Shown here piece by piece: positions 12,627-28,861 of a DNA stretch of 37,004 nucleotides. The DNA lies in contig NZ_CABPSK010000008.1 of NCBI RefSeq assembly GCF_902459645.1, positions 1 to 37,004 on the forward strand. The letters run 5' to 3'. The DNA is from Pandoraea pneumonica (GTDB taxonomy: Bacteria; Pseudomonadota; Gammaproteobacteria; Burkholderiales; Burkholderiaceae). Position numbers and translations under genes: made by a program. Under the pieces are notes generated by a model. It saw only the letters and a list, made by a program, of their open reading frames with translations, was not told the DNA's origin and did not search any database. Each line of letters begins with the position of its first letter. The first letter of the stretch is position 1.

Positions 12627-12694
12627 GGTGGCCGGCGGCGCTAGCGAAAGCCAGCGCCGCATTCACCGAATCTGTTGCGACAGCAGTAGAAATG

Positions 12695-12730
12695 AAAAAC
12701 GGCACCCTTTGCGGGGTGCCGTTTTTTTTT
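12695..12730. terminator. Bidirectional terminator between rpoC and the TonB receptor gene
   Basis: CGGCACCC (12700-12707) pairs with GGGTGCCG (12714-12721) around a 6-nt loop. Nine T residues follow on the plus strand. Five A residues precede it, which read as T on the minus strand. The convergent fecA-like gene ends at 12764, so one hairpin can stop both transcripts. Confidence 0.92.
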
Positions 12731-12763
12731 GCCTGCGCGATTCGCTTGGCGACTACACGGGGA

Positions 12764-14965
12764 TCAGAACCCGAAGTGGCCTTGCACGTAGACCATGCGC
12801 GGCGCGCCCACCATGATGCCGCCGTTCTGGTCGGTGTTGCGCGTGTAGAAGCGCTTGTCGAACACGTTGTTCACGCCCACCGTGACATCGGCGTTCTTGT
12901 AGAACGGCAGCTTGTACATCGCTTGCAGATTCCACACGCGGTAGCCCGGCACTTTGCCGTTCGTGCCGTCAGCCGACTGCGCTTCGGTGTTCGCCAGATC
13001 GGAGTACTGCGAGCTCTGGTGCGTGGTCGAGACGTTGAACGTCCACTGACCGATCGCATAACGTGCGCCGAGCGTATCGGTAAAGCGCGAGTAGAACGGC
13101 ACGTCGAGACCGGCCGTCGTGCCCGACTTCTGAATGGCGCGCACATACGTGAAGTTTGCGTACAGGTTCAGGCCGCGCAGCGCGCTGTCTTGATCGAACG
13201 TGTAGTCGAGGGCGGTTTCGATGCCGTCGTGGTTCGTCGCACCGATGTTCTGGAAGGTCGCCGGGCTGACGTTCGGCACTTGCAGAATCTGGTTGTCGAA
13301 CTTCATCTTGAAGGCCGTCAACTCGGCGCGCCAGCGGTTGTCCGTCCAACGCGTACCAATTTCATAGGTGCGCGCCACTTCCGGCTGGAGCGGGTTCGAC
13401 GCCGACATCGAGTTCAACTGCGTGTTCTGCACCGGACCGAACGACGTGCTGTAGTCCGCGAAGATCGTCCACGCGCTGTTCACCAGATACGACAGGTTCA
13501 CCGACGGCAACGGCTTGTTGTTGTCGGTGCGGTAGGTGCTGCCCGAGGCCTTGTCGACGCGCTGCGAGGCGATCATTTCATAACGAACGCCCGGCGTGAA
13601 ACGCCAGTTGCCCCACGCCATGCGGTCGTCGATATAGAACGCGTTCGCGCTGGTGTAGTTGTAGAACGTGGTCGTCGCCGAGTTCTTGCCGGTCGCCAGG
13701 TTCGTGCTGAAGTTGTTGTCGTCCCCGCGCTCGCGAATAAAGCGATAGCCGACTGTCACGTCGTGCGCCGTCGGTCCGAGGAACAGGCGCTGCGTGTAGC
13801 GCGGCTCGATGCCGAACGTTTGATAGTTACGCGGCTGATGCGTGGTCGCGAGCGGTGCCACCGACAAGTTAGTCAGCGAGCTCTGACGGTAGCTCTCGTT
13901 GTAGAACGTGCGAATCTCGAATTCCTGCGTGTCCGAGATCGTGTTCAGGTACCCGAAGTCGAGCCCGGTGCGATTGCCGCTCCAGTAGTCGTTCGGGCGC
14001 GTGTTCTGGAACGGATCGGCGTTGTATTGCGCGGCAGTGAGGCCGCCCGGCGTCTTCGACTTGGCATCGAAGTACGAGAGCTTCCCGTAGACCTGTTGGC
14101 TCGGCGAGATGTCGTAACGCCACTTCAACGCGAGGTCGTTCACATTCTCGTTACTGCCCGTGCGCCAGTCGCGGCCCACCATGCCCGAATAGAGCAGCGC
14201 GAGGCCCAGCCCGTTATCCATCTGCGTGCCGAGGAACAGGCCGTATTGCGTGTTCGCGCCGCCGCCGGTCGTGTACATGTTCTCGCGCACGGTAGCGTCG
14301 CCGACGAGGCCCGGCGTATTCGGGATCGAGCGCGTCTTGAAGTTGATCACGCCACCGACGTTCTGCGGGCCGTAGCGAACCGCACCGCCGCTGCGCACCA
14401 CGTCGATGGTTTCGATGTTGAACAGGCTGACCGGGGCGAACGACAACTGCGGCTGGCCATACGGCGCCACAGCGAGCGGAATGCCGTCGAGCAGCACGGT
14501 CGAGCGCGGGCTGAAGCGACCGGCCAGGCCGCGCACCCCGATGTTCAACGAGATGGCACTGCCGGCGCTGCTGGAGTTGTCGGTGGCCTGCACGCCCGGC
14601 ACACGACGCAGCACATCACCGATGCTCGATGCGCCCGACGCTTCGATCTGGTCCTTCTTCACGACCGTGCGCGCGCCCGGGAACGTCTTCGCGCTGTTAT
14701 CCAACCCGGTGCCCAGCCAATCGCCCGACACGTTGACCGTACCGAGTTCGACATCGGCGCGGGCTTCGTCCGCCGCACGAACCGTACTCGCGGAGCTGGC
14801 GGCTGCCGTGGCGTCGGCGGCTTGCTGCGCATGGGCGACACCGAGCGTGGCCATGAACAACGTGGCGGCGCAGGCAGTCGCACGGGGCAAACGGGAGGAG
14901 GGCATGACAGCGGCGGTGCGCAGAGCAGCCTGCGCCGTCGCGCGGCGACGTACGGACATCTTCAT
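12764..14965 (-). CDS. fecA: TonB-dependent receptor, FecA (ferric dicitrate) type
   Basis: This is a 733-aa outer-membrane beta-barrel with N-terminal plug. A Sec signal peptide ends near residue 46 (FMATLGVAHA-QQ). The plug closely follows FecA wording: SGDWLG, PGARTVVKKDQI, VLRRVPGVQ, SLNIGVRGL, SPRSTVLLDGIP, APYGQPQLS and VRYGPQNVGGVINF. The barrel ends with aromatic residue F (HFGF), the BamA recognition end. Only about 30 residues separate the signal peptide from the plug, so the periplasmic signalling domain that FecA of E. coli uses to talk to FecR is missing. No fecI/fecR pair is nearby. A Fur-like box overlaps its promoter, suggesting direct iron repression. Family is sure; ferric citrate as ligand is likely but not proven. 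An internal ATG at 14905 is a less likely start. Confidence 0.88.
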   Translation of the reverse strand: MKMSVRRRATAQAALRTAAVMPSSRLPRATACAATLFMATLGVAHAQQAADATAAASSASTVRAADEARADVELGTVNVSGDWLGTGLDNSAKTFPGARTVVKKDQIEASGASSIGDVLRRVPGVQATDNSSSAGSAISLNIGVRGLAGRFSPRSTVLLDGIPLAVAPYGQPQLSFAPVSLFNIETIDVVRSGGAVRYGPQNVGGVINFKTRSIPNTPGLVGDATVRENMYTTGGGANTQYGLFLGTQMDNGLGLALLYSGMVGRDWRTGSNENVNDLALKWRYDISPSQQVYGKLSYFDAKSKTPGGLTAAQYNADPFQNTRPNDYWSGNRTGLDFGYLNTISDTQEFEIRTFYNESYRQSSLTNLSVAPLATTHQPRNYQTFGIEPRYTQRLFLGPTAHDVTVGYRFIRERGDDNNFSTNLATGKNSATTTFYNYTSANAFYIDDRMAWGNWRFTPGVRYEMIASQRVDKASGSTYRTDNNKPLPSVNLSYLVNSAWTIFADYSTSFGPVQNTQLNSMSASNPLQPEVARTYEIGTRWTDNRWRAELTAFKMKFDNQILQVPNVSPATFQNIGATNHDGIETALDYTFDQDSALRGLNLYANFTYVRAIQKSGTTAGLDVPFYSRFTDTLGARYAIGQWTFNVSTTHQSSQYSDLANTEAQSADGTNGKVPGYRVWNLQAMYKLPFYKNADVTVGVNNVFDKRFYTRNTDQNGGIMVGAPRMVYVQGHFGF

Positions 14966-15075
14966 CTTTGCTGACCTTCGAAACTACGTATGAGTGGCGA
15001 GCGCGGCCTTCGCTCTTGGCGAGCCCCCGGCGCGGTCGATTGTTGTTGGTAATGCGATGTAATAAAACGTCGCGG

Positions 15076-15356: not shown

Positions 15357-15407
15357 GATTATCCAGTTTTGCTTATGAATCGCCCAAAATCGATTGATTG
15401 TTCCGCA
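15357..15407 (+). promoter_or_regulatory. 51-bp conserved operator, copy A (upstream of the meta-cleavage operon)
   Basis: This block is repeated in inverted orientation at 25388-25438 with 47 of 51 identical bases and no gaps. Differences are at 15364, 15370, 15376 and 15383. It contains the dyad AATCG-N8-CGATT (15378-15395) and the self-complementary AATCGATT (15388-15395). It ends 93 nt before the hydratase start. A TATAAT-like AATAGA occurs at about 15424-15429, so the block would lie roughly at -80 to -30, the usual footprint of LysR-type activators. The repeat is seen directly; LysR binding is inferred from the second copy lying beside a lysR gene. Confidence 0.75.
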
Positions 15408-15500
15408 GGCGCCGAGCCGCAAGAATAGAGCGCATCGAGACAAGAACCGCGCTGCCCGATCGCCCCCGTGGCGGCCATGTCGGCGCTATGGAGACAAACG

Positions 15501-16304
15501 ATGCTGGATGCGTCGATTCATCAAGCGCTGGCTCGCGAGTTGCACGACGCCGAGCGCAATCGCACGCCGGTCATGCAGTTCTCGCGCCGGTATCCCGACA
15601 TGACGGTGGCCGACAGCTACGCGATTCAACAAGCGTGGCTTGCGCTGAAATACGCCGAAGGCCGCCGCGTCATCGGCCACAAGATCGGCCTCACGTCGCG
15701 CGCGATGCAAGTCGCCGCGCAAATCACTGAACCCGATCACGGCACGCTGCTCGACGACATGCTTGTCGCCGATGGTGCAACGCTCGAAGCGGGCCGCTTT
15801 ATCGTGCCGCGACTTGAAGTCGAACTGGCTTTCATTTTGGCCAAACCGCTCAAGGGCCCGGGCGTCACGTTGTTCGACGTGCTCGATGCCACTGCATGGG
15901 TGACTCCGGCACTGGAACTGATCGACGGCCGCATCGAACTGTTCGATCGCGACACGCAGACACCGCGCAAGGTCTTCGACACGATTGCCGATAACGCGGC
16001 CAACGCCGCCATCGTGCTGGGTGGGCGTCCCGTCAAACCGGATGCCATCGACTTGCGCTGGACGGGCGCGCTGCTCTATCGCAATGGCGTGATCGAGGAA
16101 TCGGGGTTGAGTGCCGCCGTGCTGAATCACCCGGGCAACGGCATTGCGTGGCTCGCCAATAAGTTGGGCGCGTTCGACGAAGGTTTGCAGGCGGGTGAGA
16201 TCGTGCTCGCCGGGTCGTTCACGCGGCCGGTGGCCTGCAAAGCGGGCGATGTCTTTCATGCCGATTACGGTCCGCTGGGCGCGATCGGCGTGCGCTTCGT
16301 TTGA
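15501..16304 (+). CDS. hpaH: 2-oxohept-3-enedioate (2-hydroxyhepta-2,4-dienedioate) hydratase
   Basis: This 267-aa enzyme adds water to the dienol intermediate of the homoprotocatechuate meta-cleavage pathway, giving 4-hydroxy-2-oxoheptanedioate. It closely resembles HpcG/HpaH of E. coli along its length ([52 protein letters not shown]). The metal ligands appear as Glu106, Glu108 and Glu139. I chose ATG 15501 because GGAG lies at 15490-15493 and the N terminus then matches the family; an upstream ATG at 15468 has no ribosome binding site. It is the first gene of a six-gene operon and lies downstream of the 51-bp operator. Confidence 0.93.
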
Positions 16305-16382: not shown

Positions 16383-17159
16383 ATGAAAACGCCCCCGAAT
16401 CTCTTCAAGCAGGCGCTGGCTAACCGGCAGCGTCAGATCGGTCTGTGGATGGGACTCGCTACGCCGTACGCCGCCGAGCTATGTGCGGGTAGCGGCTTCG
16501 ACTGGATCGTGATCGACGGCGAGCATGCGCCGAACGATCTGCGCTCGATGCTCGCCACGCTTCAGGCAGTGGCGCCGTATCCGTCGCACGCCGTCGTGCG
16601 GTTGCCGCACGGCGATGCGGCCCTCATCAAGCAGGTGCTCGAAATCGGCGCGACGACGCTGCTCGTTCCGATGGTCGAGTCCGCCGAAATGGCGGCGGCG
16701 CTGGCGAGCGCCACGCGGTATCCGCCGCAGGGCACGCGCGGTGTGGGGAGCGGGCTGGCCCGCTCGTCACGCTGGAATCGCTATGAAGATTATTTGCACG
16801 CCGCAAACGACAGCACATGTCTGCTGGTGCAAGTCGAGACTGCCGACGCGCTCGCGCAAGTCGATGCCATTGCGGCCGTCGATGGCGTAGACGGCGTGTT
16901 CATCGGCCCGGCGGATCTGGCCGCATCGATGGGCTATCTCGGGCAAGCGACCCATCCTGAAGTGCGTAAAGCCATCGAAGCGGGCATCGCGAGGATTCGC
17001 GCGGCGGGCAAGCCTGCCGGCATCCTCTGTGTCGACGAGGCGCTGGCTCGCCATTACCTCGACCTTGGCGTGACGTTCATCGCCGTGGGCATCGATACGT
17101 CGCTGCTCGCGAACGCCAGCCGCGCGCTCGCTGCGAAGTTCGCGCCGTCGGCCGACTGA
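16383..17159 (+). CDS. hpaI: 4-hydroxy-2-oxoheptanedioate aldolase
   Basis: This 258-aa class II pyruvate aldolase cleaves 4-hydroxy-2-oxoheptanedioate to pyruvate and succinic semialdehyde. It follows E. coli HpaI closely ([51 protein letters not shown]). The catalytic residues appear as His48, Arg73, Glu152 and Asp178, each three positions after the E. coli numbers. The ribosome binding site is weak and the gap from the hydratase is 78 nt. Together with the hydratase it forms the lower end of the pathway. Confidence 0.93.
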
Positions 17160-17194: not shown

Positions 17195-18670
17195 ATGAGC
17201 GCTTCCCGTTTTGACGTCGCCGGCATTTCGGTGTCGCCGGATCACTTTATCGACGGACGACGCGTCGCGTCCTCGGACACCTTCGAGTGCGTTTCCCCCA
17301 TCGACCAGACGCTGCTCGGACACATCGCCAGCGGCAATCTCGCCCACGTCGACGCCGCAGTGACGTCGGCGGCGCAGGCGTTTCCCGAATGGGCGGCGCT
17401 GGGTGCCGCAGCACGTCAGCCGTATCTGCAACGCTTTGCCGACGCGATCGGTCGGCGCGCCGAGGCCTTCGCCACGCTGGAGAGTCACGACGCGGGTGTG
17501 CTGCGCTCACGGATGGCACACGGCGTGGTGCCCCGCGCCATGCAGAACATCACGTGGTTTGCAGAACACGCCCTCACGCTGCAAGACCGCGTGATCGAGA
17601 CGCCGCAGGCCCGCCATCTCGTGCGGCACGATCCGGCGGGCGTGGTGGCGATCATCACGCCGTGGAATTCGCCGCTGATGTTGGCCACATGGAAGATCGG
17701 CCCGGCGCTGGCATCGGGCAACACGGTGGTGTTGAAAGCGCCGGAGTGGGCACCGCTGACGTCGTCGCTGCTGGCCGATTGTGCTGAAGAAGCCGGGCTG
17801 CCGCCGGGGGTGTTCAATCTGTTGCAGGGCTCGGGGGCGGTGACCGGGGCCGCGCTCGTGAGCGATTCGCGTCTGGCACGCATCTCGTTCACCGGATCGG
17901 TGGCGACGGCCAAATGGATTGCGAAAACCGCGGCGACCAATCTGGTGCCGTGCAGCCTTGAGCTGGGTGGCAAGTCGGCGTTCATCGTGCTGGCCGACGC
18001 CGATCTGGAAGCGGCTGCGGCCACGGCAGCGCTGATGTATCGCAATGCCGGGCAAGTGTGTCTTGCCGGGACGCGTCTGCTCGTACACGCCGATGTTGCG
18101 CCGCGCTTCACCGAGATGTTGCGCACGTTGGTCGAAAGCCTGGTCGTGGGCGATCCACGCGAGGCCGCGACGGAAGTCGGTCCGATCATTCATCCGCGTC
18201 AGTTGGAGCGCGTGGAAGGGTTTGTCGAGCGTGCCGTCGCGGGCGGCGCGCGTGTGTTGTGGGGCGGCAAACGCCATGCATTCGGTGCGCAGTATTTCGC
18301 GCCGACGTTACTGACCGACCTGCGCCAGCGCGACGAGATCGTGCAGCAGGAAGTGTTCGGGCCGGTGCTGACCTTGCAAACGTTCAAGAGCGATGACGAG
18401 GTCGTCGACATGGCGAACGGCACCGATTACGGGCTGGGCGGCGTGTGTTACGGCGACGAATCGCATGCCATTGCCGTGGCGCAGCGCGTGCGCACGGGCT
18501 TCATCTGGGTCAACAGCTTCGGTATTCGCGATCTCGCCGCGCCGTTCGGCGGCATCAAGCGCTCGGGCGTGGGGCGCGAAGGCGGAGAGTGGAGTTTTGA
18601 ATTCTTCTGCGACGTGAAGGACGTGGTCGTGCCGAAACAACCGTTCAAGGCGAGCTTCAGCCATCGCTGA
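17195..18670 (+). CDS. hpaE: Aldehyde dehydrogenase, 5-carboxymethyl-2-hydroxymuconate semialdehyde dehydrogenase type
   Basis: This 491-aa NAD(P)-dependent aldehyde dehydrogenase has all catalytic parts: TPWNSP with Asn158, Lys181 of the cofactor pocket, FTGS (232-235), Glu256 in LELGGK and nucleophile Cys289 in NAGQVC. By context it oxidises the semialdehyde ring-cleavage product made by the dioxygenase encoded next. The sequence alone would also allow a betaine-aldehyde or general semialdehyde dehydrogenase. GAGG at 17185-17188 precedes the ATG. It is 35 nt from the aldolase gene and 61 nt from the dioxygenase gene. Confidence 0.8.
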   Translation: MSASRFDVAGISVSPDHFIDGRRVASSDTFECVSPIDQTLLGHIASGNLAHVDAAVTSAAQAFPEWAALGAAARQPYLQRFADAIGRRAEAFATLESHDAGVLRSRMAHGVVPRAMQNITWFAEHALTLQDRVIETPQARHLVRHDPAGVVAIITPWNSPLMLATWKIGPALASGNTVVLKAPEWAPLTSSLLADCAEEAGLPPGVFNLLQGSGAVTGAALVSDSRLARISFTGSVATAKWIAKTAATNLVPCSLELGGKSAFIVLADADLEAAAATAALMYRNAGQVCLAGTRLLVHADVAPRFTEMLRTLVESLVVGDPREAATEVGPIIHPRQLERVEGFVERAVAGGARVLWGGKRHAFGAQYFAPTLLTDLRQRDEIVQQEVFGPVLTLQTFKSDDEVVDMANGTDYGLGGVCYGDESHAIAVAQRVRTGFIWVNSFGIRDLAAPFGGIKRSGVGREGGEWSFEFFCDVKDVVVPKQPFKASFSHR

Positions 18671-18731
18671 AGCGCTGTCGTCCACATTGTCGAAAAGCAG
18701 CGACACGAAAAGAGAGATTGAGGAGAGCACC

Positions 18732-19625
18732 ATGGGACAAATCGTCGGCGCGGCATTGGTGTCGCACCATCCCGGCTTGATGCAGTGTGAAGAATTCCGC
18801 GTATTGCAGGGCGCGGGGGCAGATTCGGATTTGATCGCGGGATACGCGCGGTTACGCGAACGCATTGCGGCGGCGAAGCCGGATGTCGTGCTGATTTTCG
18901 ATTCGCACTGGTTCACGACCGGCTATCACCTGATCGACGGTGGCGCGCATTACTCGGGGATGTACATCTCCGACGAAATGCCGTGGTATCTGCATGGCGT
19001 GCCGTACGACTATCGGGGGCATCCGGAATTGGCGCTGGCCGTCGACGCGGTGGCGCGCGAGAAGGGCGTGCGTGCACGTGCCGTGCAACACCCCGATCTG
19101 CCGCGTCACTACCCGACGATTAACGTCATCAAACAGATGCGGCTCGACGCATGGCCGATCGTGACGGTGAGTTCGTGCCAGAACTGCGAGACGGAACACT
19201 TCCTGCAATCGGGCGAGGTGATTGGCGAGGCGATTCGCCGCAGCGATCTGCGTGTGGTGATGCTGGCGTCCGGCGCGTTGAGCCACAAGTTCAACGGCAT
19301 CGACTGGAAGCCCACGCATCCGCGTATTTTTCATGAGAGCAACGTGTCGCGCCCGGAAAACATCGAAAGCGACAAGCGCGCGATCGAGGCGTTTCGCGAG
19401 GGGCGTCACGATCAAATTTTGGCGGACTGGGACAGCGATTACCGCAAGCGTCCGTGGGAGGCGCACGGTGCGCACTATCTGCAAATGGTCGGTGCTCTGG
19501 GTGGTGCTGCTTGCCGTAGCAAGGGCGTGGTGCTCTCCGATTACGAAAACGCGCGCGGGACCGGCAACGTGCATATCTGGTTCGACGCCGACGGCGGTGT
19601 GAGCAACGCCGCGCGTCAGGCTTGA
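18732..19625 (+). CDS. hpaD: Class III (LigB-type) extradiol ring-cleavage dioxygenase, homoprotocatechuate 2,3-dioxygenase-like
   Basis: This is a 297-aa Fe(II) enzyme of the LigB/HpcB superfamily that opens a catechol ring next to the hydroxyl pair. Likely metal ligands are His12 or His13 (SHHPG), His59 (DSHW) and a Glu in WEAHG near residue 247. Other family stretches are GMYISDEMPW, YRGHPELA and ASGALSHKF. Resemblance to E. coli C HpcB is clear but moderate, and the segment DLPRHYPTINVIKQM differs from it, so the true catechol may not be homoprotocatechuate. I chose ATG 18732, which has AGGAG at 18721-18725, over an in-frame ATG at 18687. Confidence 0.78.
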   Translation: MGQIVGAALVSHHPGLMQCEEFRVLQGAGADSDLIAGYARLRERIAAAKPDVVLIFDSHWFTTGYHLIDGGAHYSGMYISDEMPWYLHGVPYDYRGHPELALAVDAVAREKGVRARAVQHPDLPRHYPTINVIKQMRLDAWPIVTVSSCQNCETEHFLQSGEVIGEAIRRSDLRVVMLASGALSHKFNGIDWKPTHPRIFHESNVSRPENIESDKRAIEAFREGRHDQILADWDSDYRKRPWEAHGAHYLQMVGALGGAACRSKGVVLSDYENARGTGNVHIWFDADGGVSNAARQA

Positions 19626-19637
19626 AGGAGCAAGACG

Positions 19638-20585
19638 ATGGATTTCGAATTTCCGTTGCGTGAACTACCGGCGGTGATGCGCGGCCCGCGTGTCGAGCGT
19701 CGCCGCATCTTGCTGGGCGGCAGCGCGTTCTGGGGCACGATGATTGAAGATGGCGCGCAACGCGGCCAACTGAGGCTCGACGACGGGCGCGTGATCGACC
19801 CGCAAACGGTGGCGCATCTGCCGCCGGTCGACCCGTCGAAGATTATTGCGGTGCATATCTCGTATCGCTCGCGCAGCATGGAGACCCGCAACAAGCCCAA
19901 GCCGACCGATACGCCGACCTATTTCACCAAACCGCCGACGTCGCTCAATGGTCACGGCGGGCAGATTCTCAAGCCCGCCGATTGCAAGTATCTGAACTAC
20001 GAGAGCGAGTACGCGGTGGTAATCAGCCGGACGTGCCGCAACGTGTTGCCCGACGAGGCGTGGGATTACATCGAAGGCTTGTGCCCTGCGCTCGATATGG
20101 GATTGCAGGACTTCCGCGATACCGATCAGGGATCGATGCTGCGGGTGAAGGGCGCGGACACGCTGCTGCCGATTGGGCCGGGCATCGTGCGTGGTGTGAA
20201 TTTGTTCGAGCAGACGTTGCGCACGTATCGCAACGGCTTGGTGGTGCAAGAGGCGCATATCGGTGACGAGACGATTTGGGGGCCGCATTACGTGATTGCG
20301 GATATCGCGCGGCACATTACGCTGATGCCGGGCGACGTGATTCTGATGGGCACGCCGTGTCATTCCCGCTCGGTCGATGCGGGCGATTTGGTGGAGTGCG
20401 AGATCACTGGGCTGGGGCGGTTGTCGGGGCGCGTGGTCAGCGTCGAAGCGCCGCGTGCGGCGGCACTTGGCGTTGGACACGCACCGACCGATAGCCCCGA
20501 AGTGCGGCGTGTGGCGCTGGGTTTCGATGAGCGTGTGCCGGAGCATTTCAAAGAAAACTATCGACGTGCCGCCAACAAGGCGTAA
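19638..20585 (+). CDS. Fumarylacetoacetate hydrolase-fold protein (HpaG-like decarboxylase/isomerase)
   Basis: This 315-aa protein has one FAH domain at about residues 65-275, with metal ligands Glu122, Glu124 (YESEYAVVI) and probably Asp153. The usual C-terminal signature is present (LMGTPCHSRSVDAGDLVECEITGLGRL). An N-terminal extension of about 65 residues and a C-terminal tail of about 40 are present. In E. coli HpaG two FAH domains share decarboxylase and isomerase work; here there is a single domain, so it may do one step or both. AAGGAG overlaps the dioxygenase stop, 12 nt before the start, indicating coupling. Hydrolase activity on a different acylpyruvate cannot be excluded. Confidence 0.75.
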   Translation: MDFEFPLRELPAVMRGPRVERRRILLGGSAFWGTMIEDGAQRGQLRLDDGRVIDPQTVAHLPPVDPSKIIAVHISYRSRSMETRNKPKPTDTPTYFTKPPTSLNGHGGQILKPADCKYLNYESEYAVVISRTCRNVLPDEAWDYIEGLCPALDMGLQDFRDTDQGSMLRVKGADTLLPIGPGIVRGVNLFEQTLRTYRNGLVVQEAHIGDETIWGPHYVIADIARHITLMPGDVILMGTPCHSRSVDAGDLVECEITGLGRLSGRVVSVEAPRAAALGVGHAPTDSPEVRRVALGFDERVPEHFKENYRRAANKA

Positions 20586-20628: not shown

Positions 20629-21618
20629 ATGAAGGTAGCGATCGTTGGTGCGGGCGCCATTGGCGGCTTGATCGGAACGAAGCTTGCCGCGACGGGCGAG
20701 GCGCAAGTGAGCGCGTTGGCTCGTGGCGCGACGCTGGCGGCGCTGCGTGAGCGCGGCTGGCGCGTGAAGCAAGGCGAGTCGCTCGCGGCGGCACCCGTTG
20801 CGGCAGCACATCCGCTGGAAGACGCGGCGAAGCTCGGTGTGCAGGACGTGGTGGTGATCGCGGTGAAGGGGCCGGCGCTCACGCAGGTGGCCGCATCGAT
20901 TGGACCGCTGCTCGGGCCGGACACGATCGTGTTGCCCGCCATGAATGGCGTGCCGTGGTGGTTCTGCAAGGGCATCGCGCCGTTTGGTGATGAACCGCTC
21001 ACGAGTGTCGATCCGGGCGGCGCGATTGGGGCCGCCATTCCGCTGGCGAACGTGGTGGGATGCGTGGTGCATGCGAGCGCAGCGACGCCGGAGCCCGGGC
21101 TGGTCGATCACAAGATGGGCCGCGGGCTGATTCTCGGCGAGCCGGGCGGCGGTGTGAGCGAGCGTGTGCAGAAGCTGGCGGCGCTGTTGGAGCGCGCGGG
21201 CTTTGAAGCGAAGGCATCGGAGAATGTGCGGCAGGACATCTGGTACAAGCTCTGGGGCAATCTCACGATGAATCCGGTGTCGGCGATCACCGGCGCGACC
21301 ATCGACCGCGTGCTCGATGACCCGCTCGTGCGTGCATTCTGCTCGGCGGCGATGACGGAAGCGGCGACGATCGGCGGGAAGATCGGCTGCGTGATCGATC
21401 AATCGCCGGAAGACCGGCACGCGGTGACGGCGAAGCTCGGTGCTTTCAAGACCTCGATGTTGCAGGACGTGGAAGCTGGGCGGCCGATTGAGCTCAATGC
21501 GCTCGTGAGCGTGGTGCGAGAGATGGGGCAGAAGCTGTCGATCGCGACACCGAACATCGACGCGCTGCTGGGCTTGGCTCGGTTGTTCGGGCGGGTGAAG
21601 GGGTTGTATCCGCAGTGA
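20629..21618 (+). CDS. 2-dehydropantoate 2-reductase (PanE/ApbA) family oxidoreductase
   Basis: This 329-aa NAD(P)-dependent reductase of 2-oxo acids starts with the Rossmann motif GAGAIGG (residues 7-13). It has the family residues Asn106 (PAMNGVPWW) and Lys207 (DIWYKLWGNLTMNP). Being last in a catabolic operon, it is more likely to reduce or oxidise a pathway 2-oxo acid than to make pantoate; this is inference. GGGAG at 20617-20621 sets the ATG. A strong terminator follows and closes the operon. Confidence 0.8.
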   Translation: MKVAIVGAGAIGGLIGTKLAATGEAQVSALARGATLAALRERGWRVKQGESLAAAPVAAAHPLEDAAKLGVQDVVVIAVKGPALTQVAASIGPLLGPDTIVLPAMNGVPWWFCKGIAPFGDEPLTSVDPGGAIGAAIPLANVVGCVVHASAATPEPGLVDHKMGRGLILGEPGGGVSERVQKLAALLERAGFEAKASENVRQDIWYKLWGNLTMNPVSAITGATIDRVLDDPLVRAFCSAAMTEAATIGGKIGCVIDQSPEDRHAVTAKLGAFKTSMLQDVEAGRPIELNALVSVVREMGQKLSIATPNIDALLGLARLFGRVKGLYPQ

Positions 21619-21715: not shown

Positions 21716-22501
21716 TTATCGAAGCACGGCGAGCGATACCGATGCGGCATGCGCTGGCGGGATCGCCGAGGAGACGTGATCGATGCCGTCGTTTGGCGCG
21801 TCAAACGAGCTCAGCGAATGTACCAAACGACCGAGGCCTACGGGGGGCGAAACACGGGGGGAGGATATTGTTGCTAACCGCAGGTGGTCGTCGGCTCGTG
21901 CTATCGAATGGGGTGCATCTTCCGCGCTATTGGGCGCTTCGAGGCCAAGCGACGCCAAGATGCGCCGGTTGAACGATGTTTCGTTATCGGCGCCGTCAAT
22001 GGTCAATGTGCTCTCTTTAGGTGTGCCGTCTACGAGGCGATAGGACGCGGCCGCACTCAGATTCATCTTGTCGCCATCGACGATTTTGTATGTGTAGATC
22101 ACGGCGACATTGTTGCCTTGTTTGTCGCTGACGCTTCGGAAAATGTGATGGTTATCCTGACGGTCTTGGCTTCTCATTTCATCGAAAGCGCGCCTGTACG
22201 ACCACCTTTCAAAAAAATTCCCGGAAGGACTTTCCCGCTGTTTATCGTCGATGTCCTTTAGTGTTCGATGTAGATCGTTCCCCAGACTGCCATTGGCGAT
22301 GTCCTTCATTAACCACGGGGCTTTGGCGCGAGCTTCGTTAATCGCACGGCCTATCTCGCTGAGCCTGCGTAGTGCCCTTTTTCCCATCCTTTCAGCGTGA
22401 TGTCCGTTCGGGGCGTTAGGGAAATCTATGCCTAACGCGTCGTGAAGCTCGTTGACGACTTGCACGTACTCGGCTTGAGTGCCGTTGGTGGCATGAGCCA
22501 T
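21716..22501 (-). CDS. Orphan hypothetical protein of lower GC content
   Basis: This 261-aa protein matches no family I recognise. I chose ATG 22501 (MAHATNGTQAEY), which has GGAG at 22513-22510 on the minus strand; the open frame extends upstream to 22684 without a better start. It has no signal peptide or membrane segment. The first half is charged and probably helical (ERMGKRALRRLSEIGRAINEARAK). The middle looks like beta strands (NVAVIYTYKIVDGDKMNLSAAASYRLVDG). The C-terminal 70 residues are Ser/Pro/Ala rich. Base composition is visibly less GC-rich than the flanks, for example 22080-22260. This suggests horizontal acquisition. A secreted effector is one possibility, without direct evidence. 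Confidence 0.65.
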   Translation of the reverse strand: MAHATNGTQAEYVQVVNELHDALGIDFPNAPNGHHAERMGKRALRRLSEIGRAINEARAKAPWLMKDIANGSLGNDLHRTLKDIDDKQRESPSGNFFERWSYRRAFDEMRSQDRQDNHHIFRSVSDKQGNNVAVIYTYKIVDGDKMNLSAAASYRLVDGTPKESTLTIDGADNETSFNRRILASLGLEAPNSAEDAPHSIARADDHLRLATISSPRVSPPVGLGRLVHSLSSFDAPNDGIDHVSSAIPPAHAASVSLAVLR

Positions 22502-22697
22502 TTCGATATCTCCAGATCGTTTCAAGGAAGGCCGCGATGCCGACAATCGGATCGCTGGCCCGCCTACTCTGCGCCTCGATTTCTGAATCACTCGACACTT
22601 CAGAAACGATCTGTGAATTGGCACACCGCTTGGGGGATAAAGCTGAAGGCAATTCTTATGAAATGACTCCGGCCACCGGTGCAAGCTCTAGACGACG

Positions 22698-23996
22698 TTA
22701 CCGAACCCCCGTATGCCGATAAATCTGACTCAACGCCGCAAGCCCAATCGCTGCCGCCGCCATCATGTAGAAGCTCGGTGCCAGCTTGCTGCCGGTGACG
22801 TTGATCAGCCACGTCAGGATGAACGGGGCGAAGCCGCCGAAGAACGTTACCGACAGGTTGTACGAGAGCGATAGGCCCGTCGTACGCGTCTTCACCGGGA
22901 AGATTTCGGACGCCAGCGCAGGCAACGGGGCAAAGTACACCGTCATCAACACGCCCAGCACCGTTTGCAGCGCAAGCATCATGCCGAAGCTCGGATACGT
23001 GGACAACATCCAGAACATCGGCCAGATCAGCACCAGCAGCGCAGCCGCCGCGATCATCATCGGCTTCGCGCGCCCGGCGCGGTCCGACCATGCGCCCACC
23101 ACCGGCGACAAGAACATCTGCACCAGCCCAGTCGCCACCGTTGCCGCGAACGCCACCGACGCGGGCAAGCCCAATTGCTTGATCGCATACGTCGGCATGT
23201 ACAGCACGAGGTACGTCGATACAGTGGCCACGATGACCGCGCCCACCGCCAGCAACAGACGCATCTTCTGATCGGCCAGCGTGTCGCGCAGCGGTGTCTC
23301 GGTCGGCTCCGCTTGCAGAAACTCAGGCGTCTCGTCCACGTGGCGACGGATGTAATACGCCACCGGCCCGATCAACAGCCCGAACAGGAACGGCACGCGC
23401 CAGCCCCAGCTTTGCATCTGATCCGGCGAGAGCGTGCTCGTGAGCAACGCGCCAAATCCGGCGGCCAGCAGCGTCGTCAGCCCCTGACTTGCCACCTGAA
23501 AGCTCGCGAAGAAGCCACGACGTTGCGGTGCATGCTCCGCGAGAAACGCCGTCGCGCTGCCGAATTCGCCGCCCGCCGAGAATCCCTGAATCATCCGCGC
23601 CAACACGATCCCGATCGGCGCGAGCACGCCAATGGACGCATACGTTGGCATGAACGCAATGATCGCCGTGCCGACCATCATCATCAGAATGGTCAGCGTG
23701 AGCGCCGCGCGCCGGCCCTGCTTGTCGGCATACACCCCGATCACGATGGCGCCCAGCGGCCGCATGAAGAACGACACGCCGAACGTGCCCAGCGTGAGCA
23801 GCAACGATGTCGTGTCGTCGTGCGTGGGGAAGAACAACTTCGAAATGGTGACGGCGAAGAAGCCGTACACCACCAAATCGAACCATTCGAGGGCATTGCC
23901 GATGGACGCAGATATCACAGCGCGCCAAGGGTGTTTGGCGACGTGGGTGCCTTCACGGGCGTTAGCGCCCGCTCCGGCGGCGGTAGCGGTTGTCAT
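22698..23996 (-). CDS. MFS transporter, metabolite:H+ symporter (MHS) family
   Basis: This 432-aa inner-membrane protein has about 12 hydrophobic segments. The MHS signature GNALEWFDLVVYGFFA lies at residues 33-48 and the MFS loop motif GVYADKQGRRAAL at about 87-99. GEFGSATAFLAEHAPQRRGFFAS is typical of the KgtP/ProP/ShiA group, which imports organic acids or related compounds with protons. GGAG lies 7 nt before the ATG. It starts 81 nt after the aminotransferase gene on the same strand, so the two probably form an operon and the transporter likely imports a substrate of that enzyme or of the meta-cleavage pathway. Confidence 0.88.
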   Translation of the reverse strand: MTTATAAGAGANAREGTHVAKHPWRAVISASIGNALEWFDLVVYGFFAVTISKLFFPTHDDTTSLLLTLGTFGVSFFMRPLGAIVIGVYADKQGRRAALTLTILMMMVGTAIIAFMPTYASIGVLAPIGIVLARMIQGFSAGGEFGSATAFLAEHAPQRRGFFASFQVASQGLTTLLAAGFGALLTSTLSPDQMQSWGWRVPFLFGLLIGPVAYYIRRHVDETPEFLQAEPTETPLRDTLADQKMRLLLAVGAVIVATVSTYLVLYMPTYAIKQLGLPASVAFAATVATGLVQMFLSPVVGAWSDRAGRAKPMMIAAAALLVLIWPMFWMLSTYPSFGMMLALQTVLGVLMTVYFAPLPALASEIFPVKTRTTGLSLSYNLSVTFFGGFAPFILTWLINVTGSKLAPSFYMMAAAAIGLAALSQIYRHTGVR

Positions 23997-24077: not shown

Positions 24078-25277
24078 TCAGCGGGGCGTGAGCACCTGGG
24101 CGATGGCACTCGCCACCGTGCCGACGTTGCGCGTATTGAGCCCAGCCACGCACATGCGGCCCGAGCGCAGGATGTAGACACCATGCGTCTCGCGCAGCGC
24201 GTCGGCTTGTTCTGCCGACAATCCCGTATAGGTGAACATGCCGCGTTGCGCGAGGTAGCGCGCTCGCATCTCGTCGCTCACATGCGATGCCAGTCGTGCG
24301 TGAATTTCTGTGCGCATTGCGGCGATGCGCGTGCGCATACCATCGAGTTCGGCTTCCCACGCGCGGCGCAGGGCAGGTGTCGTGAGGACTTGGGCAACGA
24401 GCCGCGCGCCGTGCGTCGGCGGATTGCTGTAGTTCGCGCGCACCGTGCCGGTGAGTTGTCCGAAGACATGCGACGCTTCTTGCGCCGACGAACACACGAT
24501 CGACAACGCGCCACAGCGCTCGCCGTACAGCGAGAAGTTCTTCGAGAACGAGTTCGCCACCACGCTCGGCACGCCGGCGTCGGTGAGGGCGCGCACGGCG
24601 AAAGCGTCGGCGTCGAGGCCGTCGCCAAAGCCCTGATAGGCCATGTCCACGAAGGCAATCAGACCGCGCTCGCGCAGCACCGGGATCAAGGCGTTCCACT
24701 GCGCCGGGGTGAGGTCGACGCCCGTCGGGTTATGGCAGCACGCATGCAACAGCACGATGCTGCGGGGCGGCAGCGCGGCGATGGCCTCGAGCATGGCGTC
24801 GAACCGCAGACCACCCGTGACGTCGTCGTAGTACGGGTATGACTGAACCGGAAAGCCCGCGCTCTCGAAGACGACGCGGTGGTTGTCCCAACTCGGGTCG
24901 CTGATCCATACGGTCGCGTCGGGGAAATAGCGCTTGAGGAAGTCGGCACCTACGCGCAATGCGCCGCCGCCGCCGAGCGTCTGCAAGGTGGCGATGCGTT
25001 GCTCGCGCCGGGCGGCGCTGTCTTCACCGAAGACAAGGGCCTGCACCGCGTCGCGATAAGCCGCAGTCCCGGCCATGGGGAGATACGGGCGCGGGCCGAT
25101 GTCGGCGAGTACACCGGCTTCCGCCTCTCGCACCGCGCCCATGACGGGCAGTCGGCCAGCATCGTCGAAATAAATGCCGATCGACAGATTGACCTTGTGC
25201 GGCCGGGCGTCTTGCCCAAACGCTTCGTTCAAGCCAAGGATGGGGTCGCCAGGGTAGGCGTCAACGTGAGAAAACAT
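24078..25277 (-). CDS. Aromatic/aspartate-type aminotransferase (class I, PLP-dependent)
   Basis: This 399-aa enzyme belongs to the AspC/TyrB subgroup. PLP-site residues appear as Trp130, Asn183 (HNPTG), Asp211, Tyr214, Lys246 (NSFSKNFSLYGER) and Arg254. Arg280 in VRANYSNPP corresponds to the arginine that binds the distal carboxylate in AspAT/TyrB. The C-terminal Arg in GLNTRNV binds the alpha-carboxylate. It therefore accepts dicarboxylic and probably aromatic amino acids. It is divergent from lysR, and its upstream region holds the second copy of the 51-bp operator pointing at it, which links it to the ring-cleavage operon. Confidence 0.88.
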   Translation of the reverse strand: MFSHVDAYPGDPILGLNEAFGQDARPHKVNLSIGIYFDDAGRLPVMGAVREAEAGVLADIGPRPYLPMAGTAAYRDAVQALVFGEDSAARREQRIATLQTLGGGGALRVGADFLKRYFPDATVWISDPSWDNHRVVFESAGFPVQSYPYYDDVTGGLRFDAMLEAIAALPPRSIVLLHACCHNPTGVDLTPAQWNALIPVLRERGLIAFVDMAYQGFGDGLDADAFAVRALTDAGVPSVVANSFSKNFSLYGERCGALSIVCSSAQEASHVFGQLTGTVRANYSNPPTHGARLVAQVLTTPALRRAWEAELDGMRTRIAAMRTEIHARLASHVSDEMRARYLAQRGMFTYTGLSAEQADALRETHGVYILRSGRMCVAGLNTRNVGTVASAIAQVLTPR

Positions 25278-25387
25278 GGGGCCTCGCGGGGTGTCGATAC
25301 CAAATTCGATGCCAAAGGGCTAATCGGAAATCGGAATAAAGGGAAATGCGGGGAATTTTTTGAAATCGATTGTGGGCGACGACCCTT

Positions 25388-25438
25388 TGCGGAACAATCA
25401 ATCGATTTTGGTCGATTCGTAAGCGAAACTTGATAATC
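25388..25438 (-). promoter_or_regulatory. 51-bp conserved operator, copy B (lysR/aminotransferase intergenic)
   Basis: Read on the minus strand, this block matches 15357-15407 at 47 of 51 positions. It lies 110 nt upstream of the aminotransferase start and ends only 8 nt before the lysR ATG on the other side. Bound regulator could activate the aminotransferase-transporter pair and repress its own gene, the usual arrangement for LysR-type regulators. The core AATCGATTGATTGTTCCGCA is identical in both copies. Confidence 0.75.
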
Positions 25439-25446
25439 CAAACCTC

Positions 25447-26379
25447 ATGCCCCTGACCCGCGTCACGCTGCGCCAGTTCGAAGCGCTAGTCGCCATTGCC
25501 GAGTTGCACAGCTTTGCCGAGGCCGGTAAGCGCCTCGGTCTCACGTCGTCGGCGGTGAGCCAACTCGTGGCCGAACTCGAATCGGTTCTGGGCTTCCGGA
25601 TATTCGACCGCACCACGCGGCGCGTAGCGCTCTCCAGCGCCGGGCGCGATTTTCTGGCGTCGGCCGAATCGGTGTTGCGCCATGTGCAGGCCGCAGAGAA
25701 AACGGCCGACGATTTGCGCAATCGCGCCGCTGGCATCGTGCGTGTGGGGGCGCCGCTGGTGCTCGCTGGCATGGCGTTGCCCGCCGCCATTCGCGACTAC
25801 GCGGTGTTGCGTCCGAAAGTGGTCGTGCGCGTCGTCGATACGCCGGTCGATGCGCTCATCGATCATGTGGCGAATGGCGACCTCGATCTGGCCATCGGTC
25901 CCAATCGCGCTACGGGCGCGCATGTCGCCGGTGCGCCTGCGTTCGATAGTCCGTGGGTGTTGTGGTGTGCGCCTTCGCATCCGCTCGCCAAACGGAAGCG
26001 GTTGCGCTGGCAGGATCTGCGCGATACGCCACTTGTCGCGGCGGGGCGCGATCACGAGCGAAGCGTCGAGCAAATGCGCGCGAGCGCACCGCCCGACGCG
26101 CGTATTACCCCCATCGATGTCGTCGATAACGTGACCACTGCGCTGGGTATCGCCGCACAGGGGCTCGCGTCGACGCTCACGCCCGGCTATGTGGCGGCGC
26201 TCGCGAATACGTTTGGCCTCGTCATGCAGCGGGTCACCGCACCCGAGACGATTCGTCAGGTGTGCGTGTACCGGCCCGTGTCGCGCGCGGCATCGCCCGC
26301 CGCCGAAGGCTTTGCGCAGTTCCTGCTCGACTGGCTGCCGCAGTGGAACGAACGCATCATGTCGGCGTCGCGCGATTGA
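25447..26379 (+). CDS. LysR-type transcriptional regulator
   Basis: This 310-aa protein has an N-terminal winged helix-turn-helix at about residues 4-63 (LRQFEALVAIAELHSFAEAGKRLGLTSSAVSQLVAELE). A linker helix and the two-lobed co-inducer domain follow (about 90-300). There is no obvious ribosome binding site, and the 51-bp operator stops 8 nt before the ATG, so its mRNA leader must be short or start inside the operator. By position it should regulate itself and the divergent aminotransferase. The identical operator before hpaH suggests it also controls the ring-cleavage operon. The co-inducer is unknown. Confidence 0.93.
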   Translation: MPLTRVTLRQFEALVAIAELHSFAEAGKRLGLTSSAVSQLVAELESVLGFRIFDRTTRRVALSSAGRDFLASAESVLRHVQAAEKTADDLRNRAAGIVRVGAPLVLAGMALPAAIRDYAVLRPKVVVRVVDTPVDALIDHVANGDLDLAIGPNRATGAHVAGAPAFDSPWVLWCAPSHPLAKRKRLRWQDLRDTPLVAAGRDHERSVEQMRASAPPDARITPIDVVDNVTTALGIAAQGLASTLTPGYVAALANTFGLVMQRVTAPETIRQVCVYRPVSRAASPAAEGFAQFLLDWLPQWNERIMSASRD

Positions 26380-26468: not shown

Positions 26469-27002
26469 TTATCGGCGCTTGGCGTCGGCAGACGAAGGCG
26501 CAGGCAGTGCGGCGAGATCCTCACTCAACTGCGCACGCAACGTCGTGATCGCCGCATTGGTATCGGACGGCTTCAACTCCTCACGCGCGATGGCTTCACG
26601 CAAGTGATGCCGCAAAAGCGGATCGCGCGTCTGCGACAACGTCTCGCGATAGAACGGCAGCACGTTATCGGGATGACCACCCACGCGGTACAGATGGGCA
26701 ATTTCGTCGATGGTGCGCATGGCGGCGAACGCCGGACCTGCCGGCGCGTGGGGGCCCATCGGTCCGGGGCCGCCGGGGCCTTGCGGACCATGCGGGCCAG
26801 CACCCGGCGGCGGGGGCGGCATGCCGGTGCCTTGCGGCCCGTTCTGTGCGAGGGCGATCTGGGGCGGCGTATCGGGAGTAACGGGAGTAACGGGAGTAAC
26901 GGGAGTAACGGGCGGCGCGGCATGCGCAATGTTGACGACGCTGCCGAACAGCGCGATCGTCAGTGCCGTGGCCGCAGCAAGGTATTGGCGTGTGATCTTC
27001 AT
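26469..27002 (-). CDS. Secreted Pro/Gly-rich hypothetical protein with a PVT repeat
   Basis: This 177-aa protein has a clear signal peptide (residues 1-28, ending NIAHA). A short repeat region PVTPVTPVTPVTP follows, then a Pro/Gly-rich stretch to about residue 90 and a helical C-terminal part (about 93-165). That part contains IDEIAHLYRVGGHPDNVLPFYRETLSQTRDPLLRHHLREAIAREEL. It is probably periplasmic. GGAG lies at 27014-27011 before the ATG. I recognise no family; it is alone on its strand. Another open frame on the plus strand here is a shadow. Confidence 0.7.
   Translation of the reverse strand: MKITRQYLAAATALTIALFGSVVNIAHAAPPVTPVTPVTPVTPDTPPQIALAQNGPQGTGMPPPPPGAGPHGPQGPGGPGPMGPHAPAGPAFAAMRTIDEIAHLYRVGGHPDNVLPFYRETLSQTRDPLLRHHLREAIAREELKPSDTNAAITTLRAQLSEDLAALPAPSSADAKRR
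26873..26912 (+). repeat. 9-bp tandem repeat inside a secreted-protein gene
   Basis: Four exact copies of CGGGAGTAA run from 26873 to 26908, followed by a partial CGGG. In the minus-strand gene each unit encodes one Pro-Val-Thr triplet. Gain or loss of units keeps the frame, so length variation between strains is expected. Confidence 0.93.
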
Positions 27003-27300: not shown

Positions 27301-27708
27301 ATGAGTACCGAATTCGTTCGTCCGGTCGCCGTCACGTCGCTGCGCAGCCCGCTGGACTTCTATGCCACGCTCACCCGCGTGATCGACGCGCTGAAGCAGC
27401 ACGGCATGACGATCTTTGCCGACATCGATCAGAGCGCTGCGGCCGAAGCGGCGGGGGTGTCGCTCAGGCCCACACGCCTACTGCTGGTCGGCAACCCGAA
27501 GGGCGGCACGCCGGTCATGGCGGCGAATCCGCACGCAGGGCTGGAACTGCCACTCAAGGTGATGGTGTGGGCGGCGGCAGCCGACGAAGTGTGGGTCGAT
27601 TTTCTGAACCCAGGCCCCGCGTTGAGCGCGCTGTACGGGATCGATGCGGCGCAGGTTGCGGGCTTCGGCGGCGTGGCGAAGTTGCTGGAAGGCGCGCTCA
27701 AGGCGTAG
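27301..27708 (+). CDS. DUF302 domain protein
   Basis: This 135-aa protein shows the DUF302 pattern: LKQHGMTIFADIDQSAAAEAAGVSLRPTRLLLVGNPKGGTPVM, then LPLKVMVW and VWVDFLNP. The domain is widespread and its biochemical role is not established. No signal peptide or membrane segment is seen, so it is probably cytoplasmic. A good AGGAGG at 27291-27296 precedes the ATG. It stands alone between a minus-strand gene and a 313-nt gap, so the context adds little. Confidence 0.85.
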   Translation: MSTEFVRPVAVTSLRSPLDFYATLTRVIDALKQHGMTIFADIDQSAAAEAAGVSLRPTRLLLVGNPKGGTPVMAANPHAGLELPLKVMVWAAAADEVWVDFLNPGPALSALYGIDAAQVAGFGGVAKLLEGALKA

Positions 27709-28021
27709 TTGGGCCGATTGCAGGGCTGGCAGGGCGGATAGCGGGGCGGGTTCAGCCGGTAAAACGGCATGCGCCGCCCAGCACGCCGCCTCGGGGCGCC
27801 GGGCACGCGAGTCCACCGCCGCGTGCCCCGGGGGCATGCGCAAAGCCTTATGCCACGGGCGTGAGCACGTTCGGTGCGTGTCGCGAAAAGTGCCTATACT
27901 GATCCGGCCTTTCTGTGCGCGAGCGCCGTCGTCAGGCGCGGCTGTTCCCCACGGCCGCCGGTGCGCAAGTTTGCCGGTCGCGAGCGCAGGCATTTCCCCT
28001 ATTTCCTCAGGAGTGACTCCC
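27709..28021 (+). other. Intergenic region with a GC-rich hairpin before the dienelactone hydrolase gene
   Basis: No gene is supported here. A perfect 9-bp inverted repeat GGGCACGCG (27801-27809) / CGCGTGCCC (27820-27828) could end the DUF302 transcript, but no T run follows. A TATACT at 27895-27900 is a possible -10 without a good -35. A ribosome binding site (CAGGAG, ending at 28012) serves the next gene. Confidence 0.5.
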
Positions 28022-28732
28022 GTGTCGAACAGTCAATGGATCCGCGTCGAAACCGTCGACGGCACCTTCGATGCCTATCTGGCATTGCCGCCGTCGGGCA
28101 AGACGGCTAACGCCCCCGGCATCGTGCTCGTGCAAGAGATCTTCGGTGTGAACGAGCATATTCGTAGCGTGGCCGACCAGTACGCGTCGGACGGCTACGT
28201 CGTGATCGCACCCGATATCTTCTGGCGTGCGGCCCCGCGCGTCGAACTGGGCTACTCGGGCGACGACATGGCCCGCGCGATGGAATTGCGTAAGTCGGTG
28301 GACGTCGAGAAGGCGGTTGCTGATGTCGGGGCTTGCGTGACAGCGCTGCGCGGCAAACTCGACGCGGGCGCGAAAGTGGCTGCCGTCGGCTACTGCTTCG
28401 GTGGTTTGGTGTCGTACATCGCCGCCGCGCGCGGTCTGGTCGACGCAGCCGTGCCGTATTACGGCGGTGGCATTCACAACTACCTTGGCGAAGCCCCCAA
28501 CCTCAACGTGCCGACGCAATTCCACTACGGTGCGCTCGATAGCCACATCACGCCCGATATCGTGACTGCCGTCAGCGAGGCCGTGAAGTCGCGCCCGAAT
28601 ACGGAAGTCTTCGTGTACCCGCAAGCCGATCACGGTTTCAACTGCTGGGCGCGCGGCTCGTACCATCAGCCGTCGGCAGCGCTGGCGCATGGCCGTGCGC
28701 TCGCGTTCCTGGCGCAATGGTTGTCGAAGTAA
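28022..28732 (+). CDS. Dienelactone hydrolase family protein
   Basis: This 236-aa alpha/beta hydrolase has the dienelactone hydrolase set: Glu39 (QEIFGVN), nucleophile Cys125 in GYCFGG, Asp173 (GALDSH) and His204 (DHGFNCW). Enzymes of this family open dienelactones or related esters, for example in chlorocatechol breakdown. Here no ortho-cleavage genes are adjacent, so the substrate is unknown. I chose GTG 28022 because a ribosome binding site (GGAG near 28010) lies at normal distance; the open frame runs further upstream but without support. A terminator follows. Confidence 0.87.
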   Translation: MSNSQWIRVETVDGTFDAYLALPPSGKTANAPGIVLVQEIFGVNEHIRSVADQYASDGYVVIAPDIFWRAAPRVELGYSGDDMARAMELRKSVDVEKAVADVGACVTALRGKLDAGAKVAAVGYCFGGLVSYIAAARGLVDAAVPYYGGGIHNYLGEAPNLNVPTQFHYGALDSHITPDIVTAVSEAVKSRPNTEVFVYPQADHGFNCWARGSYHQPSAALAHGRALAFLAQWLSK

Positions 28733-28810
28733 GGCCGCGCGTGACGGTCGCACTCCCCGACTGCGATCGAAGGCAACGGTGATCGGACGACGCCGTTGTC
28801 AAAGGGAAAC

Positions 28811-28845
28811 AAAAAGCCCGCCCCAACTTCTTGGGCGGGCTTTTT
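28811..28845. terminator. Terminator after the dienelactone hydrolase gene
   Basis: GCCCGCCC (28816-28823) pairs with GGGCGGGC (28833-28840), flanked by five A residues before and five T residues after. It works for the plus-strand gene and could also stop minus-strand transcription. Confidence 0.92.
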
Positions 28846-28861
28846 GTTGTCAGACTGTGCT

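Follow-up and report, generated by a model that had tools for sequence, protein, structure and literature searches.

A 51-bp block that occurs twice in the 37,004-nt stretch of Pandoraea pneumonica DNA analysed here (the window) very probably serves as operator for a LysR-type regulator, whose gene lies at 25447-26379 on the plus strand. The first-pass annotation had read the block in the same way, and this reading is supported by the presence of only two sites in the genome, their co-occurrence with lysR, the fixed spacing of the site and its conservation. One copy faces a ring-cleavage operon and the other faces an aminotransferase-transporter pair while abutting lysR itself, and comparison with related genomes points to the aminotransferase transcript as the main client of the second copy.

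Two copies of the block in the genome

Copy A, at 15357-15407 on the plus strand, faces the hydratase operon, and copy B, at 25388-25438 on the minus strand, faces the aminotransferase gene and abuts lysR. Direct comparison gave 47 identities in 51 positions without gaps, as first annotated, against a best chance match of 25-28 of 51 in 30 simulated dinucleotide-Markov windows; the runner-up match to copy A inside the window reached 26/51. The distances reported earlier hold as well, with 93 nt from copy A to the hydratase ATG (15501), 110 nt from copy B to the aminotransferase ATG (25277) and 8 nt from copy B to the lysR ATG (25447). In the whole genome (5.85 Mb), BLAST, a pattern search allowing up to 3 mismatches and a sequence model were concordant in finding two copies. 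By BLAST against its own genome, the second copy of the block had an E value of 1.1e-14 (75 bits) and the next match 30 bits, and with the sequence model, built from 32 sites, the copies scored 55.8 and 55.3 bits and the next best candidate 13.4. The own-genome search with this model scored 150 of 827 first-look candidates and, as whole-genome model searches score part of such candidates, a weak third site may have escaped. Many unrelated copies, the outcome named beforehand as speaking against a LysR operator, were looked for genome-wide, and the finding of only two sites rules out a dispersed repeat. The short palindrome pattern AATCGAYYRATT has 7 strand matches in the genome, two of which are the copies, and is uninformative alone.

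The earlier statement that identity stops at the block edges stands for the comparison of copy A with copy B, where similarity is at background on both sides, but fails within each set of orthologs, which also conserve a -10-like box 13 nt beyond the block. The core common to both copies comprises columns 1-45 (15357-15401 in copy A and 25394-25438 in copy B). Across Pandoraea, the majority fraction at copy A is 0.42-0.54 in the 60 nt before the block and on average 0.97 in the 45-column core, and at copy B it is 0.93 before the block, 0.97 in the core and 0.96 in the 30 nt after it. Conservation is thus high on both sides of copy B, and the edges are visible by conservation at copy A only. 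Columns 8 and 27 differ between the two copies in every genome, which indicates that the copies arose long ago and undergo no homogenisation. The copies are inverted and flank both the operon and the aminotransferase-transporter pair, as would the ends or remains of a mobile or invertible element enclosing the 10-kb segment, but we give this origin next to no credence: the gene order and orientation are constant in 22 of 22 genomes that have the whole segment, which rules out an invertible or mobile segment, the two differing columns are found in every genome, and outside Pandoraea the site is single and tied to lysR and to promoter spacing.

Genes at the two copies

The 310-aa product of lysR has PF00126 (HTH_1, N-terminal) and PF03466 (LysR_substrate, C-terminal) above their gathering scores, and its residues 5-303 match OxyR-type LysR structures such as 6g4r; as lysR co-occurs with the site, its product is the presumed cognate regulator. 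The presumed operon downstream of copy A, on the plus strand, starts with a hydratase gene (15501-16304; TIGR02312, HpaH, 431.8 bits) and an aldolase gene (16383-17159; TIGR02311, HpaI, 380.2 bits), both above equivalog cut-offs. These are followed by genes for an HpaE-like aldehyde dehydrogenase (17195-18670), a LigB-type, HpaD-like extradiol dioxygenase (18687-19625; PF02900; TIGR02298 at 135 bits against a cut-off of 316), an HpaG-like protein of the fumarylacetoacetate-hydrolase (FAH) family (19638-20585) and, as the last gene, a PanE/ApbA-family reductase assigned by domain and family matches (20629-21618). A homoprotocatechuate (hpa) cluster, hpaG1G2EDFHI, has been described in Burkholderia xenovorans LB400 with hpaR adjacent (PMC3053370, available text). 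The hydratase, aldolase, dehydrogenase, extradiol dioxygenase and isomerase/decarboxylase are related between the two clusters, but the regulator next to the LB400 genes is the HpaR repressor in that text whereas here it is of the LysR family. The operon also departs from hpa in that its dehydrogenase, dioxygenase and FAH-family (isomerase/decarboxylase) proteins fall below the HpaE, HpaD and HpaG cut-offs, so that its enzymes are not all equivalogs, and it would encode a pathway similar to homoprotocatechuate meta-cleavage.

On the minus strand, copy B faces an aminotransferase gene of the aromatic-amino-acid family (24078-25277; NF006719, 565.9 bits, above cut-off), with the gene for an MFS metabolite/H+ symporter, assigned by domain and family matches, downstream of it (22698-23996). 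A 322-aa minus-strand open reading frame at 21716-22684, between the PanE gene and the symporter gene, has no Pfam match, and the PanE-symporter spacing differs among Pandoraea genomes. Downstream of lysR, a tandem array at 26869-26912 holds 4.9 copies of the 9-mer GTAACGGGA, and a 16-bp inverted repeat at 28808-28848 (AACAAAAAGCCCGCCC), perhaps a terminator, follows a dienelactone-hydrolase-family gene (27644-28732).

A TonB-dependent receptor gene (12764-14965, minus strand; PF00593 and PF07715), absent from the first-pass annotation, is divergent from the hydratase operon and starts 391 nt from copy A. A divergent homolog adjoins copy A in all 27 genomes, the match covering as much of it as the fetched stretches contain, and weaker site-like sequences precede uptake genes elsewhere (a TctC gene in locus L066 and an MFS gene in locus L144), which would be in keeping with control of the receptor by copy A and hence with three promoters plus lysR in the regulon. 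We find this unlikely given the length of the interval, which also varies (about 190 nt in L091 and L108), and the poor conservation of the 60 nt before copy A noted above. The 760-aa plus-strand open reading frame that overlies the receptor gene (12692-14974) matched nothing in Pfam or NCBIfam and is probably its shadow.

Co-occurrence of the site and lysR

Among 32 Pandoraea genomes, 27 have a lysR ortholog (88-100% identity) and the same 27 have a hydratase ortholog (91-100%). The block is found in these 27, with two copies in 23 and one in 4, and in none of the 5 genomes without lysR, and a reversed-pattern control gave 0 matches in all 32; the co-variation with lysR that had been proposed as a check is therefore seen throughout the genus (27/27 against 0/5). 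Ten of the 27 also carry a lysR paralog of 48-50% identity, yet have no third block. Gene order is identical in the gene maps of all 27 (26 fetched regions and the window).

A contig search returned 45 loci, 28 of them outside Pandoraea, with flanks of up to 10 kb. A hydratase gene lies divergently from lysR in 23 of the 28, and within these 28 loci and flanks the search matched no gene akin to the window's aminotransferase or symporter. With a matrix built from Pandoraea only, the site ranked first in the entire locus in 23 of the 28, in each case directly upstream of lysR and pointing away from it; it ranked second in L064 and third in L078, and no site was found near lysR in L072, L079 and L081, the last of which is a truncated lysR match. 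Of the 23 first-ranked sites, 21 face the hydratase gene and one (L069) an HpaE homolog, while L070 has no matched window gene. Their log-odds are above zero in 15 and zero or below in 8, with a lowest value of -30, so that these 8 stand out by rank and place and not by absolute score. The dyad and promoter boxes described below were analysed in 25 sites, that is the 23 first-ranked ones with L064 and L078, leaving out L072, L079 and L081; alignment A1 leaves out L064, for its second rank, and the three loci with no site near lysR. Weaker, tentative site-like sequences precede a PanE gene (L064), LigB homologs (L067 and L072), the TctC gene of L066 and other genes in L061, L073, L075 and L078.

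In a sample of 299 genomes of the family, 55 have the site at E<=0.01 and 48 have lysR at E<=1e-98, and all 48 of the latter have the site. Co-variation thus extends beyond the genus: in 21 of 21 genomes outside Pandoraea with the lysR ortholog, one of which may be related to a training row of the model, the site is present and lies 5-30 nt from the lysR match. Seven of the 251 genomes below the lysR threshold also have a site match, with about 3 chance matches at E<=0.01 expected in 299 genomes. Four of the seven sites are weak (E above 0.001), and in G170 and G244 the lysR gene next to the site either gives a weaker match or is split. G121, with a site at E 5.7e-6 and no lysR matched in 18 kb, speaks against the operator reading. 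In G244 the lysR ortholog (locus L150, 8840-9770) is matched in two parts, at 71% and 61%, and may be broken, with the site present.

The facing genes change outside Pandoraea, where regions were inspected in 17 of the 28 genomes with the site. In genus g20, 14 genomes have lysR and 12 of these have an aminotransferase of 69-72% identity adjoining the site; no dioxygenase was matched at E<=1e-30 in those 12. A PanE homolog follows the aminotransferase gene in five inspected g20 genomes, with a class II aldolase between them in the two that were scanned. In the two other g20 genomes the site faces a hydratase gene (G185) or an MFS gene (G249, with a more distant lysR of 57%). In both G185 and G144 the site faces the hydratase gene and the dioxygenase is present, in G144 on another contig; G144 has two aminotransferases of 71-72% on contigs other than that of lysR, which goes against a strict picture. 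These dioxygenase and aminotransferase searches covered 19 genomes, drawn from the 28 non-Pandoraea genomes with the site (15) and the 5 Pandoraea genomes lacking lysR (4), and left out the genomes with a more distant lysR (G116, G174, G206, G249, G282 and G285). Outside Pandoraea, then, one site faces a ring-cleavage operon, an aminotransferase operon or, beside a distant lysR, other genes.

Near-identical site-like sequences (GATTAACAAGTTTG...) from two genera, at 12274-12344 of L144 and 9274-9343 of L148, were also seen; that of L144 precedes an HpaX-like MFS gene and that of L148 has no lysR matched near it, and they are perhaps the site of a related regulator. A separate lysR group (L149 and L152-L156; 100/100 in the lysR tree) has a kindred site. 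In L153-L156 this site faces an MFS gene, with a GlcD-like FAD oxidase gene next in line in L153 and L154 (the two scanned); in L149 it faces an MmgE/PrpD-family gene.

Internal layout of the block

Columns 1-25 form an imperfect dyad that we presume to be the recognition site (15357-15381 on the plus strand in copy A; 25414-25438 on the minus strand in copy B). The dyad is that of the non-Pandoraea sites, in which the centre at column 13 is 57% self-complementary against 8-35% at 45 other centres (25 sites), with ATCAAGCGGTGCTTGAT in L056 as an example. About half of it is retained in Pandoraea (6 of 12 pairs), copy A keeping pairs 1-4, 9 and 10 and copy B pairs 2-4 and 8-10. Columns 32-45 (AATCGATTGATTGT; 15388-15401 on the plus strand in copy A, 25394-25407 on the minus strand in copy B) lie beside the -35-like box, show no variation in Pandoraea among the 27 A copies and the 23 intact B copies, and would be the activation site.

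Weak -35-like boxes, TTGTTC, are found at 15398-15403 (plus strand) for the hydratase operon and at 25392-25397 (minus strand) for the aminotransferase transcript. The hexamer reads TTGTTC in 17 of 27 A copies and in every one of the 23 intact B copies, and TTGTNN otherwise, TTGT being present in all 27 A copies. The -10-like boxes lie 17 nt after these. For the hydratase operon the box is AAGAAT (15421-15426, plus strand), kept at this exact distance in 25 of 27 A copies; for the aminotransferase transcript it is CACAAT (25369-25374, minus strand), kept in all 23 intact B copies. A -10-like NANACT is found at the same distance as the CACAAT of copy B in 21 of the 25 non-Pandoraea sites; L080 and L083 have a box one base off, L062 has CACAAT and L082 has GACAGT. 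Numbering set by the -10-like box (columns 65-70) places the centre of the dyad at about -64 and the block at about -76 to -26. LysR-type proteins are described, in the available text of PMC8407307, as having a recognition site near -65, a bound region of 50-60 bp and an activation site at -35/-10. The 45-column core and a dyad centred at about -64 from a start deduced from the sequence, although the dyad is imperfect in Pandoraea, fit a promoter activated by a LysR-type protein. A consensus scan for terminators and sigma-70 promoters found neither at copy A or copy B; the lack of a consensus promoter is as expected of an activator-dependent promoter, though no proof of one.

A T-N11-A box is doubtful as the recognition box. 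T11 and A23 are invariant in the 27 A and 23 B copies of Pandoraea, yet they are off the dyad centre, and outside Pandoraea no pair of columns reaches 12 of the 25 sites and the box is at no fixed column. The lack of a fixed T-N11-A outside Pandoraea and the imperfect dyad within it are what could be expected if the block were the operator of another, for instance global, regulator, with lysR as a passenger target. We hold this to be quite improbable, as a global regulator would have more than the two sites found, no genome of the genus that lacks lysR has the site and, in the 21 sampled genomes outside it, the site stays beside lysR while the facing gene changes.

On the strand of lysR, GATAAT at 25432-25437 lies inside the dyad of copy B, 9 nt before the lysR ATG, and is probably the lysR -10 box, which suggests that the lysR mRNA is leaderless or nearly so. 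The gap between block and lysR ATG is 8 nt in 21 of the 23 intact B copies and 3 nt in the other two, as found by a simple CAT search.

Decay of copy B and possible autoregulation

The aminotransferase and symporter genes adjoin lysR in 22 of the 27 Pandoraea genomes with lysR and are missing in G008, G010, G011, G024 and G029; MFS orthologs of at least 88% identity are confined to the 22 genomes with the pair. Copy A is retained in all 27. Copy B is intact in 22 of 22 genomes with the pair (46-51 of 51 positions against copy B of the window, which itself counts as 51), while among the five lacking the pair three have a degenerate copy B (40, 40 and 39/51), one has none and one, G010, has an intact copy (46/51). 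The model detects degenerate copies weakly (E 0.0046 in G008 and 0.0011 in G029). In a seven-protein tree, made by a quick method and with a weak backbone, the missing pair takes three changes, with the three degenerate genomes in one clade and G024 and G010 separate. From the comparison with genus g20, we infer that these changes are losses and not gains. Copy B has decayed in two of the three inferred losses, which points to the aminotransferase-transporter transcript as the one that it would mainly serve. Against a strict picture, G028, a Pandoraea genome without lysR, has an aminotransferase of 73% identity.

Autoregulation of lysR is plausible from the position of copy B. It may also be that copy B serves the aminotransferase-transporter promoter only and that its overlap with the start of lysR is positional. 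In the genomes without the pair, lysR stays open in all five while copy B is degenerate or absent in four, and decay in two of three losses is in line with a regulon lacking autoregulation. On the other hand, the GATAAT box of lysR is in the dyad, the site keeps its 5-30 nt distance from lysR in 21 of 21 other genomes, and an operator that overlaps a divergent regulator promoter is the usual arrangement for negative autoregulation (PMC8407307, as far as its available text goes). A regulon without autoregulation thus seems to us somewhat unlikely, though deserving of consideration.

Relation to known systems

The CatR, BenM, ClcR and AphT systems likewise have a lysR gene divergent from a catabolic operon with the operator between them and a small regulon, according to the available part of PMC6449761. 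The motif given there for the CatR/BenM/ClcR group, AkACC-N5-GGTAT, conforms to T-N11-A, whereas the idealised dyad of our sites is ATTATCAAG-N5-CTTGATAAT and T-N11-A is not conserved outside Pandoraea. The genes also set our system apart from these four, as they encode a homoprotocatechuate-like meta pathway and an aminotransferase. The AphT-linked operon includes a COG3971 hydratase in the same text but, unlike the system described here, has a dioxygenase of the COG3485 class and a CatR-like motif. The comparison of Betaproteobacteria in that source also predicts LysR control of related pathways, through another motif, and may hold more. In the literature searched, including the available text of PMC6449761, PMC3053370, PMC9115942, PMC8407307 and PMC11739112, we found no description of this regulator, motif or regulon, nor did we find in the literature searched a paper on duplication of a LysR-type operator. 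The kind of system is textbook, and this regulator is apparently undescribed.

Proposed regulation and history

We propose that a LysR tetramer binds columns 1-25, over the imperfect dyad, and columns 32-45, beside a poor -35 box, and that, given an inducer, it would switch on two weak promoters that share one layout. The first would drive the hydratase-aldolase-dehydrogenase-dioxygenase-FAH-PanE operon and the second the aminotransferase-transporter transcript, while LysR bound at copy B, which covers the probable lysR -10 box, would hinder its own transcription. The inducer is presumably common to both transcripts. Genus g20, where the regulator and the aminotransferase are found without the dioxygenase, argues for a metabolite on the aminotransferase side and not a ring-cleavage product; the inducer may thus lie upstream of ring cleavage, as the amino acid or its 2-oxo acid.

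A midpoint-rooted tree of 44 LysR proteins places the aminotransferase type in one group (100/99) and joins Pandoraea to the aminotransferase-type proteins together with G165 (98/96); the remaining rows are mostly of the hydratase type. The simplest history would start with an ancestor that had one operator between lysR and the hydratase gene. The aminotransferase operon would then have come beside lysR before Pandoraea and its sister genus g20 diverged, with two operators in Pandoraea and ring cleavage being lost in most of g20.

More broadly, a portable promoter-operator of about 70 bp and one regulator may have been re-wired among partner operons, serving ring cleavage alone in Comamonadaceae and others, an aminotransferase without dioxygenase in g20 and both through two copies in Pandoraea, with the spare copy eroding once its transcript is lost and the inducer lying upstream of cleavage; we see the case for and against this whole picture as evenly balanced. 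Gene clusters for which the literature searched gave us no earlier account of this kind thereby gain a predicted regulator, binding site and small regulon. The natural series of sites that face one operon, the other or both, or that remain after the loss of one of them, would be a trace of how bacterial operators are gained and decay.
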